DNA from: Methylophilus sp. TWE2
GTDB taxonomy: Bacteria; Pseudomonadota; Gammaproteobacteria; Burkholderiales; Methylophilaceae
Direction of reading: 5' to 3'
Assembly: GCF_001183865.1 (NCBI RefSeq)
Contig: NZ_CP012020.1
Span: 1,550,001-1,614,000 of the forward strand
DNA length: 64,000 bases
Both the position numbers and the translations under genes were made by a program. The first letter of the stretch is position 1; every line of letters starts with the position of its first letter. The notes under the pieces are model-generated. The model was not told the DNA's origin. It did not search any database and saw nothing but the letters and a program-made list of their open reading frames with translations. This document shows, one piece after another, positions 26,604 to 45,416 of the stretch.

Positions 26604-26631
26604 ATTTAACATAATATACATTATACGAAAT
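26604..26631 (-). other. dif: dif site (XerCD recombination), left end of integrated element
   Basis: Read on the minus strand: XerC arm ATTTCGTATAA, centre TGTATA, XerD arm TTATGTTAAAT. The centre and XerD arm match the E. coli dif site exactly, and the XerC arm is of the common ATTTCGxATAA type; in total 24 of 28 positions agree. dif is where XerC/XerD resolve chromosome dimers, activated by FtsK, and marks the replication terminus. The same position in the right-hand copy is 1908 bp away. Confidence 0.9.
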
Positions 26632-26703
26632 TAACCGTATCATTTAGCGGAATAGTTTTGCAGTTTTTCTACCTCCTACTTTTAACCCTTTGGAGACGAA
26701 AAC

Positions 26704-27102
26704 ATGAAAAAATTTCCGGCATTTTCTGACGCAGTTATCTTGCATCAAATTAACCAGCAGCAAGCAAAAATTATTTTTGCCGCTTTGCGTGTTCTCGATG
26801 CGCACTTATCACTTGAAACCCCAGCTTCTGACCTGGCTTTTGTGAAGACACAAATTCAAGACGTTCAAGAGTCTTTCGGCTTCAAGTTCTCGGCTGACCA
26901 AGTCAGCGACCCCCGCACCATGCAACCGGCTTTGCACCAGATGATTGATGCCCTTTGCGATGCATATACAAATGCTCAAGACAAACAGATACGCATGGCC
27001 AGCGAGTTTCTGAATGACCAATACGCTGAAAACTTTGAGCCTGATGTATTTAACCTGCCTAAAGGCGAAACATTAAGGATTGCAGGCCATGAGTACATCT
27101 AA
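26704..27102 (+). CDS. Hypothetical protein of the dif-integrated element (132 aa)
   Basis: ATG 26704 is preceded by GGAGACG. The 132-residue protein is soluble and mainly helical (KKFPAFSDAVILHQINQQQAKIIFAAL...), ending in a proline/glycine-rich tail (FNLPKGETLRIAGHEYI). No recognised domain. It overlaps the next gene by 14 bp, so the two are translationally coupled. First gene inside the left dif site. Confidence 0.6.
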   Translation: MKKFPAFSDAVILHQINQQQAKIIFAALRVLDAHLSLETPASDLAFVKTQIQDVQESFGFKFSADQVSDPRTMQPALHQMIDALCDAYTNAQDKQIRMASEFLNDQYAENFEPDVFNLPKGETLRIAGHEYI

Positions 27103-27277
27103 TGCCCAATCCAACAGAGAGCCCATTTCAGTGGCTACTTTTGCCCGCAATCTTGGCTTGTCAGAAGTCGTGGTCTACAAGTATTGCAAGCAAGGCCGCA
27201 TCTTTGGTGCTCGTAAACATCCTTTGACCAAGAAATGGTGGATTTACCCTCCAGCCAAACTCTTGCCTAAGCCTTGA
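27089..27277 (+). CDS. Excisionase-like HTH protein (62 aa)
   Basis: From ATG 27089 (overlapping the preceding stop). Residues about 15-50 form a MerR/excisionase-type winged helix: VATFARNLGLSEVVVYKYCKQGRIFGARKHPLTKKWWIYP. Such proteins bind attachment or operator DNA. A longer frame from 27080 is possible. Function in the element: likely recombination directionality or transcription control; inference only. Confidence 0.65.
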   Translation: MSTSNAQSNREPISVATFARNLGLSEVVVYKYCKQGRIFGARKHPLTKKWWIYPPAKLLPKP

Positions 27278-27741
27278 AGCGTAAGGCTAAGCGATACAAG
27301 CGCAAGCCATACAAGCCCATAAACCCTGATGATTTTCGATTGATAAGGCTAATGAACAAACTAACGATAGAAGATGTAGCCAAGTTGCTACATGTGACCA
27401 GCCGAACGGTTGCACACTGGGAATGCGGATCCGCCCGCATTCCCTATGCTGCCTTTAAGCTGCTGCGCATGAAAGCCAATGGCGAGTTTTTAAATCAAGT
27501 TTGGGAAGGCTGGACGATTAGAGCTGACGCCCTCTATTCTCCCACGGGTAGAGCCTTCAAACCTCACGAACTCACTTATCTCGCAAATTACTTCACGATG
27601 GCTCGCTACTGGCTAGCAGACTGTAATCAAAAAATGGCAAAACGACAACTCCAGCAACCCGCTAAGGTTCTGCGGCTTGTCACTTCTCAACCTGACAGTG
27701 AACGCGTCTCCTTGCTGCCGCATATGAGGTTTAAACGATGA
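27274..27741 (+). CDS. XafT / VC1465-like Xer recombination activation factor (DUF3653)
   Basis: 155 residues. Basic start MKRKAKRYKRKPYKP, then an HTH (DFRLIRLMNKLTIEDVAKLLHVTSRTVAHWECGSARIPYAAFKLLR, about 20-67) and a conserved second half (WEGWTIRADALYSPTGRAFKPHELTYLANYFTMARYW). This order and the phrases WxSGxARIPYAAYKLLR and WxGWxxRGDxLxSPxGxxFxPxE are what I remember of the VC1465/DUF3653 family, whose TLC-phage member XafT activates XerD for integration and excision without FtsK. Recognition is from memory. Start ATG overlaps the previous stop by 4 bases. Confidence 0.72.
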   Translation: MKRKAKRYKRKPYKPINPDDFRLIRLMNKLTIEDVAKLLHVTSRTVAHWECGSARIPYAAFKLLRMKANGEFLNQVWEGWTIRADALYSPTGRAFKPHELTYLANYFTMARYWLADCNQKMAKRQLQQPAKVLRLVTSQPDSERVSLLPHMRFKR

Positions 27742-28118
27742 GTTACTTTCATTTTAAAAAAAGCGCGGAGGAAGAGCGCCAAGCGATGACGACAAGCGTT
27801 TTTAAAATATCGCGGGGGGATGGGGGATGCCTTAATCCCCCATGCAGACAGCAATCTAACGCGCTACAAGCTTTTTTTCCGCGTGTCCCTGCCCTCTGCA
27901 CTCAACCCATGCTTATTACGCGCCCTGAAGACGGTTTTATGAATGGGCTGATTGCAAACCGCAGTCACGCGAAGCGTGATCGCGGTTTGCAACAGCACAT
28001 GGATGATTCTGGCTTCGTCTTCTTAATAACCAGCGAAGAAAGTCTCATGGGTGAGATAAAAGGAAAACGGCAAAATAGCCCGCTAAGGCGCGCCCTGCAT
28101 GGGTTTGGAGGTGTTTAG
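27738..28118 (+). CDS. Doubtful ORF across the hairpin region (126 aa)
   Basis: The ATG overlaps the stop of the Xaf-like gene (ATGA), which would allow coupling. The translation is low in recognisable structure and runs through two large hairpins (27820-27843, 27952-27992). I think this stretch is mainly a non-coding intergenic region of the element; a short coupled peptide cannot be excluded. Confidence 0.25.
   Translation: MSYFHFKKSAEEERQAMTTSVFKISRGDGGCLNPPCRQQSNALQAFFPRVPALCTQPMLITRPEDGFMNGLIANRSHAKRDRGLQQHMDDSGFVFLITSEESLMGEIKGKRQNSPLRRALHGFGGV
27820..27843. repeat. Hairpin with 9-bp perfect arms
   Basis: ATGGGGGAT - GCCTTA - ATCCCCCAT. It lies between the Xaf-like gene and the second HTH gene of the element. 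Confidence 0.85.
27952..27992. repeat. Long hairpin with GCGAAGC tip, candidate single-strand origin
   Basis: Arms TTGCAAACCGC / GCGGTTTGCAA (11 bp), one mismatch and one G:T, then TCACGC-GAA-GCGTGA. The tip contains GCGAAGC, a DNA mini-hairpin known to be exceptionally stable in single-stranded DNA and present in some phage origins. It fits a complementary-strand or rolling-circle origin. Confidence 0.65.
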
Positions 28119-28119
28119 C

Positions 28120-28443
28120 ATGAAAAAAAACTATTCCCTCTCAAAAAAGCCCGAATTCTACTATGACGACCGAGGTTATACGGTCGGCTGCACGGTTGAA
28201 AAGGCCGCCGAATACTTCGAGATTTCAACCCGCAGGGTTCGGCAAATGCTCATTGATGGCAAGCTGAAAGGCACAAAGCAAGGCCAGTCATGGCGCGTTG
28301 ATTATCCATTTCAGCGAACCATCGGCACCCGTGGCCCCGCTATTGAAAAGTATCGCAATCAAGGCATACAGCCATTAAAACAGCGCGGAAAACGCTGGAA
28401 TACTGGCAAGTTCAACAATCAGAAAATCAAGAAAGGAGAATGA
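28120..28443 (+). CDS. HTH (excisionase-type) DNA-binding protein
   Basis: 107 residues from ATG 28120, which has GGAGGTG upstream. HTH near 20-55: CTVEKAAEYFEISTRRVRQMLIDGKLKGTKQGQSWRVD, the layout of excisionase/MerR-like proteins that read helix-turn-helix plus wing. The C-terminal 45 residues are very basic. Last larger gene of the element; the start of a 20-codon ORF overlaps its stop. Confidence 0.65.
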   Translation: MKKNYSLSKKPEFYYDDRGYTVGCTVEKAAEYFEISTRRVRQMLIDGKLKGTKQGQSWRVDYPFQRTIGTRGPAIEKYRNQGIQPLKQRGKRWNTGKFNNQKIKKGE

Positions 28444-28502
28444 AATTCCTTCACTGGCTGAAACCCACACGGGAGACGAAACAGGAAAAACTCCCAAGGT
28501 AG
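28440..28502 (+). CDS. Short coupled ORF (20 aa), possible truncated gene
   Basis: ATG overlaps the preceding TGA (ATGA) and has AAAGGAG upstream, so translation signals are good. It encodes MKFLHWLKPTRETKQEKLPR and stops 10 bp before the right attachment site. It may be the truncated beginning of a longer gene lost from the element. Confidence 0.35.
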   Translation: MKFLHWLKPTRETKQEKLPR

Positions 28503-28511
28503 AAATCCTGC

Positions 28512-28539
28512 ATTTACCCCGCTATACATTATGCGAATA
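28512..28539 (-). other. dif-like attachment site with degenerate XerD arm, right end of element
   Basis: Read on the minus strand: XerC arm TATTCGCATAA, centre TGTATA, XerD arm GCGGGGTAAAT. The XerC arm and centre are canonical; only the outer TAAAT of the XerD arm is kept. With the left dif this is the product expected when an element whose attP has a poor XerD site integrates at dif. Confidence 0.75.
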
Positions 28540-44735: not shown

Positions 44736-45416
44736 TTAGAAGCCCAAGCTATCCAGTAAATCATCTACCTGCTCTTGGTTAGCGACCACATCGACAGTAT
44801 TATGTGGATCAATTTGTGGACCATTGAGCAAAGAGTCTTCATCTTTTTTCACGGCAGGTGCAAAGTCCACTAACACCTGAACCAATTGTCTTTCCAGATC
44901 TTGTGCCAGGGTCGTCACTTTTTTGATCACCTGACCAGTCAGGTCCTGAAAGTCCTGCGCCATCATGATATCCATTAACAACGACTTGGTTGTCGTAGTA
45001 TGGTCATTGGTTAGCGATAAGTATTCCAATGTTTCTTTTACAACGGCATCATATTCCGACTTGAGTGCCGCACGCTGCATCACCTCTTCCCAGCGCTTTT
45101 TGAGTGATGCGGCACGGTCAGACAACTCAGATTGAAGAGGTGTTGCCATATCAGTCGCATTCAATACACGCTCGGCTGCCTGCTCAGTCATTTTTGCCAC
45201 ATAACTCAACCGGTCACGTGCATCAGGAATTTCCTGTGCAACCTGCTCAAGTACCTTGTCATAGCCAAGAGCACTCAGGTTGTCATGCAGCGCCCGGGTC
45301 ATATGACCAATCCGGCTGATCATGTCTTCTTGTTGGGTTTCATTCAGGCCGTGCATCATTGTGGACGCGATATCCACAACGATATTCTGCTGATTCGGAT
45401 TGACAGCTTCGGTCAT
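44736..45416 (-). CDS. cheZ: Chemotaxis phosphatase CheZ
   Basis: 226 residues. Long helical hairpin with the active-site phrase AQDFQDLTGQVIKKV (Asp and Gln that attack CheY-P; about residues 145-160), and the C-terminal CheY-binding peptide VDDLLDSLGF. It dephosphorylates CheY-P. Directly follows cheY (2 bp). Last gene of the operon. Confidence 0.95.
   Translation of the reverse strand: MTEAVNPNQQNIVVDIASTMMHGLNETQQEDMISRIGHMTRALHDNLSALGYDKVLEQVAQEIPDARDRLSYVAKMTEQAAERVLNATDMATPLQSELSDRAASLKKRWEEVMQRAALKSEYDAVVKETLEYLSLTNDHTTTTKSLLMDIMMAQDFQDLTGQVIKKVTTLAQDLERQLVQVLVDFAPAVKKDEDSLLNGPQIDPHNTVDVVANQEQVDDLLDSLGF

Follow-up and report, generated by a model that had tools for sequence, protein, structure and literature searches.

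What is a 1.9-kb cluster of small genes doing at the dif site of Methylophilus sp. TWE2? The window analysed here is the whole stretch of 64,000 nucleotides from contig NZ_CP012020.1 (positions 1,550,001 to 1,614,000, forward strand), and the initial annotation had proposed that its positions 26,604 to 28,539 hold an integrative mobile element exploiting Xer (IMEX). Our analysis upholds that reading and extends it: the element is very probably a small satellite of filamentous phages (inoviruses), which entered dif by means of the host recombinases XerC and XerD and carries no replication gene of its own. The initial annotation had missed the activation-factor-family protein, the attachment site of TLCphi class and the non-coding DNA of filamentous-phage type. 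It had also taken the element for a one-off, and we find it to be one of 21 complete elements.

The two Xer sites lie in the same orientation on the forward strand with a start-to-start distance of 1908 bp, as had been stated, the left at 26605 (TTTAACATAA-TATACA-TTATACGAA) and the right at 28513 (TTTACCCCGC-TATACA-TTATGCGAA). A search of the window for the centre plus XerC arm (15 bases) returns two matches whether one, two or three mismatches are allowed; 20 first-order Markov sequences gave a mean of 0 at up to one mismatch. TATACATTATNCGNNNT is unique in the 3.08-Mb genome, its single match being the left site. Comparison of the sites agrees with the proposed division of the arms, with the dif centre and XerD arm on the left, and the centre and XerC arm on the right. 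The left site (attL, 26605..26631, forward strand) is thus a rebuilt dif, in which the XerD arm (26605-26614) and centre (26615-26620) are those of the host dif and the XerC arm (26621-26631; TTATACGAAAT) is derived from the element. In the right site (attR, 28513..28539, forward strand), the degenerate XerD arm (28513-28522) is element-derived, and the centre (28523-28528) is followed by the XerC arm that belonged to the host dif before insertion (28529-28539).

The most direct evidence for insertion comes from a related genome, G005, in which the CheX-like protein is 98% identical and a single uninterrupted dif joins both flanks, the 1.9 kb being absent. The flanks themselves are 95.7% identical over 1525 bp on the left and 96.6% identical over 1510 bp on the right. 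This empty site shows a precise insertion at dif. A second relative, G021, likewise has dif immediately ahead of the CheX-like gene. The XerC arm of the empty site in G005 is TTATGCGAATA, and the same arm is found at the right site of the window, whereas the left site has TTATACGAAAT; the element therefore supplied the XerC arm on the left and the XerD arm on the right. To judge from these arms, the point of exchange is at the centre or ahead of it, in keeping with Xer recombination. As the initial annotation had noted, the cluster has no recombinase that could be recognised in Pfam, PHROGs and NCBIfam searches of its proteins. XerD (386 bits, above cut-off) is encoded elsewhere in the genome, as is another protein of XerC/D type (287 bits), such that the element, by prediction, lacks an integrase of its own in a host that provides XerC and XerD.

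In the chromosome, dif lies at position 1,576,605 of 3,079,044, or 51% along the contig; a 20-base dif pattern (at most one mismatch) occurs in one copy each in 18 of the 22 genomes of the genus, and the proximity of dif to ligA and a tetratricopeptide-repeat gene extends to several further genera of Methylophilaceae. The polarity of the FtsK-orienting polar sequences (KOPS) and the GC skew had both been predicted to switch near 26.6 kb. Within the window, the KOPS octamers GGGNAGGG are found in forward and reverse orientation 2 and 0 times to the left of the element and 0 and 4 times to the right, which places a polarity switch at the element, from few sites; the looser pattern RGNAGGGS gives 6 and 2 on the left and 0 and 13 on the right. 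The GC-skew prediction holds roughly: the plain cumulative skew has its maximum at window position 44,742, displaced rightward from dif by 18 kb. This peak is near the place where the main gene direction changes.

How the element may exploit the host recombinases is suggested by OrfC (27274..27741, forward strand), a protein of 155 aa predicted to belong to the VC1465 family of Xer recombination activation factors (Pfam DUF3653). Its match to NCBIfam NF040522 ('VC1465 family Xer recombination activation factor'; cut-off 70) reaches 86.5 bits, and that to PF12375 (cut-off 22.4) 38.6 bits. We take VC1465 to be a gene of TLCphi. The annotated phage records matching OrfC are all Vibrio phages (21 of 21; 8.0 to 21.0 kb among the 20 listed), several of which, such as VfO3K6, are presumably filamentous. 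The eight matches among PDB sequences are helix-turn-helix regulators and antitoxins, and the PHROGs label 'tail assembly protein' on one OrfC match was taken as a misnomer. Some Methylotenera proteins are already named as activation factors in the NCBI annotation; what our analysis adds to these names is the surrounding element.

In the review PMC4246890, the TLCphi class is defined by a centre and XerC arm like those of dif together with a degenerate XerD arm, and by XerD-first, FtsK-independent integration; an IMEX of V. cholerae encodes the XerD-activating factor XafT, according to PMC9765430, which cites a TLCphi paper. The window's element and 20 others keep the centre and XerC arm with a degenerate XerD arm, and the window's element encodes a predicted Xer activation factor of the VC1465/XafT family. 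The integration class is thus best read as the TLCphi class of IMEX and, by analogy with that class, integration here was most likely XerD-first and independent of FtsK.

Among known systems, the element is like TLCphi, the satellite phage of Vibrio cholerae, in its attP layout and its lack of virion genes, a relation that rests on the VC1465 family model rather than direct sequence comparison. TLCphi differs in having its own replication module (PMC4246890), whereas no Rep was found in the 1.9-kb element by Pfam, PHROGs, NCBIfam or tblastn. Virion or export genes were not recognised in it either, in the same databases and by tblastn with phage queries. Ff miniphages depend on a helper and hold little beyond an origin and a packaging signal, but are unintegrated deletion derivatives with no genes of their own; RS1, at about 2.7 kb, resembles the element in being a small satellite that lies near dif together with its helper, CTXphi. 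The difference from RS1 is that RS1, being essentially the same as RS2, the replication module of CTXphi, carries rep; it also encodes an anti-repressor (PMC4439123), and its integration is listed under the CTXphi class (PMC4246890). The gonococcal genetic island, as described in PMC5357621, likewise has dif at one border and, at the opposite one, a dif whose XerD arm is divergent, but it spans 57 kb, contains type IV secretion genes and is no phage satellite. Among the titles and abstract openings returned by searches of open-licence papers, no description of elements like the present one or of smaller Rep-less relatives was seen, and word counts of the main text of the cryptic-inovirus survey PMC6813254 give 0 for both 'satellite' and 'XerC'. 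Since TLCphi and RS1 both have a replication module, and smaller Rep-less relatives are undescribed in the literature searched, this variant appears to be new.

The same organisation recurs in other genomes. Bounding sites were sought around the OrfC relatives of the family genomes, around the OrfB loci of a public genome collection, around IMG/VR loci and around OrfC matches in nine genomes outside the family. The 21 complete elements so found, the window's included, measure 1433-2716 bp and come from Methylophilaceae, from Gallionella and from elsewhere in the order; the count excludes elements that are truncated by the end of a contig or lack one of the sites (G107, G108, G097, G125, L090, L096, L103, G174 and G178). 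In every one of the 21, the right site combines the centre TATACA with an XerC arm that is nearly intact and an XerD arm that is degenerate, and every one has an OrfC homologue. In 18, the XerD arm of the left site resembles that of dif, and the other three (G136b, G460 and L124) adjoin another element. Two further genes are frequent: OrfB (27089..27277, forward strand; about 62 aa), a small helix-turn-helix protein that matches HTH_17 below the cut-off and is weakly Cox-like, has homologues in 16 of the 21, and OrfD (28120..28443, forward strand; 107 aa), an excisionase-like helix-turn-helix protein, in 15 (weakly in G233). The OrfB, OrfC and OrfD models behind these counts were built partly from the counted elements. 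OrfD, searched as the frame 28099-28443, scores 28.9 bits against HTH_17 (cut-off 27) and 28.7 bits against TIGR01764, marginally under the cut-off of 28.8. Six phage Rep and Zot queries (tblastn, E 0.01) match none of the 21. To our knowledge, elements of 1.4-2.7 kb would be among the smallest phage satellites.

Relatives of OrfC occur in 21 of the 150 family genomes searched, some of them outside such elements, and one public genome collection contains 16 loci with OrfB. An OrfC search over the order (E 0.001) returned 155 of 399 genomes, most of the listed ones matching over a short part only; of nine genomes with strong matches that were examined, five carry complete elements, three of them new. 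Host names include Methylotenera, Pseudomethylobacillus and Gallionella, and one contig (L099), perhaps misbinned, is labelled Latescibacterota. In genome G136, two satellites lie in tandem. Neither a single OrfC sequence nor the OrfB alignment found a relative in IMG/VR; the OrfC alignment retrieved seven loci, of which L102 and L103 were taken further as filamentous phages. Contigs of about 1.9 kb among the OrfA and OrfC matches may be excised circles.

The link to filamentous phages lies in the structured non-coding region between OrfC and OrfD. Block i (27815..27849, forward strand), a G-rich hairpin followed by ATGCAGAC, and block iii (27920..27938, forward strand; GCGCCCTGAAGACGGTTTT) also occur in filamentous phages, in several of which both stand directly 3' of zot, and block i is a candidate packaging signal. 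Beyond these is a strong inverted repeat, GCAAACCGC...GCGGTTTGC (27954..27990, forward strand), and the element therefore matches itself here. Next comes a double hairpin (28010..28061, forward strand) that is a candidate rolling-circle (+) origin, termed type B. The region is spanned by an open frame of 126 aa (27738..28118, forward strand), which has no match in Pfam or PHROGs and one NCBIfam match far below the cut-off; it is most likely no gene, because the conserved hairpins sit within it.

A model of the type-B origin was built from nine sequences of eight satellites, with the window's copy excluded. In the model, 96.7% of cells are paired and both sides change in 10 of 14 pairs; shuffled versions scored as high in none of 500 cases for four of five measures and in 22 of 500 for the fifth. 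Two matches are found in the window, the better being the element's copy (23.6 bits, E 0.0023) and the other reaching 15.4 bits (E 0.15). Among 14 Zot-bearing family regions outside the training set, three match (G162, 61.8 bits; G039, 42.4 bits; G031, 30.3 bits). Further matches lie in the L124 satellite and in L103 on its satellite side, whereas the 17 dif regions of the genus have none. Stricter filters (E 0.001) leave 11 of 187 family genomes, and miss the window's own copy. Within the set of complete elements, the model assigns a type-B origin (E < 0.01) to 12 of the 21, 8 of these being in the training set, and two (G047 and G084) have a type-A origin motif, which is also found 3' of zot in phages with the other type of Rep. 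Loci L129, L134 and L133 were selected by Zot alone. For the 80 loci L158-L237, of which 20 rows passed a filter (hairpin just upstream or Rep/Zot match) and 10 have Rep/Zot, origin-model matches are biased by that selection and were excluded from the evidence. The origin as a blastn query matched none of the annotated phages, and the pattern GTCTCAYGGGTGAGA, found in 77 IMG/VR stretches, was set aside, this number being about chance level by an uncomputed estimate.

Direct comparison of the DNA points the same way. The attachment ends were trimmed and the search space equalised (E 1e-3), and 23 satellite sequences were compared, including five partial elements and excluding the order-level G233, G337 and G499. 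Non-coding DNA matches 21 phage regions (258 kb) in 15 of the 23, and 14 Zot regions alone (214 kb) in 11; the host control, 306 kb around dif in 17 genus genomes, gives one match, to a motif of phage-origin type that lies next to dif in G014. An earlier comparison with 7 of the 14 Zot regions, preselected for a dif site or the motif, gave the same 15 of 23. The window's element itself matches the G031 phage region over 143 bp at 69% (E 1.5e-9). By this comparison, the satellites have candidate origin or packaging DNA in common with filamentous phages.

Satellites and phages are also found side by side. The IMG/VR contig L124 (7831 bp) carries a 1569-bp satellite adjoining a phage with Zot and a G2P-type Rep, and the contig ends have 17 bp in common, the att core included. 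The array of the Gallionella genome G460 begins with dif, which is followed by a phage of 6740 bp carrying Rep and Zot, an att site, a satellite of 1986 bp and a further att site. L103 shows a partial case: dif separates a phage from a satellite-like stretch that holds the origin, OrfD and OrfC. The sites of the L124 and G460 phages are of TLCphi type, and an activation factor was not found in these phages by the OrfC model, nor did NCBIfam give that name to four of their small proteins. It is conceivable, therefore, that the satellite supplies the key to integration and excision, and the phage replication and export. Such arrays give phage-satellite pairs suited to testing helper dependence.

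Mobility is proposed for the element, as are replication and packaging by a helper, the latter two from the origin and blocks that it shares with phages. The element would arrive as single-stranded DNA in a helper virion and be converted to double strand, whereupon OrfC would activate XerD on attP and dif without FtsK, and integration would leave a dif at the left end. Once a helper has arrived, OrfC may promote excision together with OrfD, the excisionase-like protein; the helper's G2P-type replication protein would then nick the double hairpin and copy the circle, and its Zot motor would export the single strand, selected via blocks i-iii. A satellite may then need little more than a site for attachment, a protein that activates the host recombinase, a borrowed origin and a signal for packaging, unlike RS1 and TLCphi, the Xer-using satellites compared, each of which brings its own replication gene. 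A broader proposal, of a widespread Rep-less satellite class that pairs an Xer activation factor with interchangeable phage origins, with phages and satellites trading both ways in arrays, is tentative and, on balance, rather unlikely.

Several observations weigh against a phage satellite. Zot, the Phage_CRI/G2P Rep and the type-A Rep were not detected in this genome, which thus has no resident helper, and the copy would be stranded until a helper arrives, or dead. Zot was found in none of 22 genus genomes and in 18 of 187 family genomes (17 above cut-off), and among the 16 family genomes in which a satellite was found, G174 alone is also one of those with Zot. The window's origin scores low and its hairpin has a bulge; the model is missing from 11 of the 14 Zot regions and has no match in four IMG/VR contigs with type-A Rep. 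Seven of the 21 complete elements have neither a model origin (E 0.01) nor the type-A motif, although one of these (L093) shows a clear double hairpin in a descriptor scan. Beyond the att core, the G460 satellite has no block in common with the neighbouring phage, so neighbours need not be a matched helper and satellite. The satellite reading leaves OrfA unaccounted for, and no excised circle, virion or read was seen.

Some of these observations would also suit a decayed filamentous prophage, a deletion remnant that kept its ends, regulators and origin by chance. The missing helper, the bulged origin hairpin of only 23.6 bits and the non-coding blocks in common with phages agree with such decay, which we nevertheless consider improbable: the same att layout and an OrfC homologue are found in 20 other complete elements, most also have OrfD or OrfB, and the rep and zot queries match none. 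Moreover, among 29 phage loci the OrfC model has a single strong match, on the satellite side of dif in L103 (165.9 bits), and weak ones on the phage side of L103 (25.0 bits) and in L163, L187, L204 and L227 (16.7-17.2 bits). Deletion from such phages would hardly yield these elements.

A small self-replicating, Xer-integrating plasmid-like element, with OrfA or OrfC as an unrecognised initiator, is less probable still. In its favour, the double hairpin is rolling-circle-like, and OrfA (26704..27102, forward strand; 132 aa; six relatives by protein search) has no assigned function. OrfC, however, is an Xer activation factor by a curated model, and an HUH motif was not seen by eye among its invariant residues; OrfA is a short protein whose low-confidence model (mean pLDDT 57.5) is mostly helical. 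The origin model also finds phages, and that of G039 has its own Phage_CRI/G2P Rep. Finally, an ordinary stretch of chromosome with a chance dif-like sequence on the right, which the GC content of the element (0.474, between flank values of 0.493 and 0.410) might suggest, can be dismissed in view of the empty site in G005 and the tandem arrays in G136 and G460.

Other arrangements were observed in the satellites and near dif. The G084 satellite has an additional 212-aa frame (L073 10754-11392), possibly cargo. Outside the family, G234 (L286 6934-8602) has two OrfC-type matches 1.4 kb apart, with no standard right-hand Xer site recognised. Filamentous prophages of opposite polarity lie at dif in G066 (L135 6612-13168) and G038 (L136 6373-13158); their site, TTTTACATAA-TATACA-GTCGCGGCG, keeps the XerD arm and centre and has a degenerate XerC arm, and a conserved gene of about 100 aa lies near dif. 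Beside dif in G014 (L040 9959-10914) there is a gene that resembles it by eye, together with a 141-aa frame and the type-A origin motif. Zot was not found in the G014 genome, and this stretch may be a remnant or may represent a second type of mini-element. The G2P-type Rep genes of G005, G001 and G020 have no origin match beside them. In G005 (L033 1807-2913) and G001 (L029 8253-9284), Phage_CRI/G2P rep genes lie 2-8 kb from dif in genomes where Zot was undetected, and a putative tyrosine integrase-like gene is found near the one in G005.

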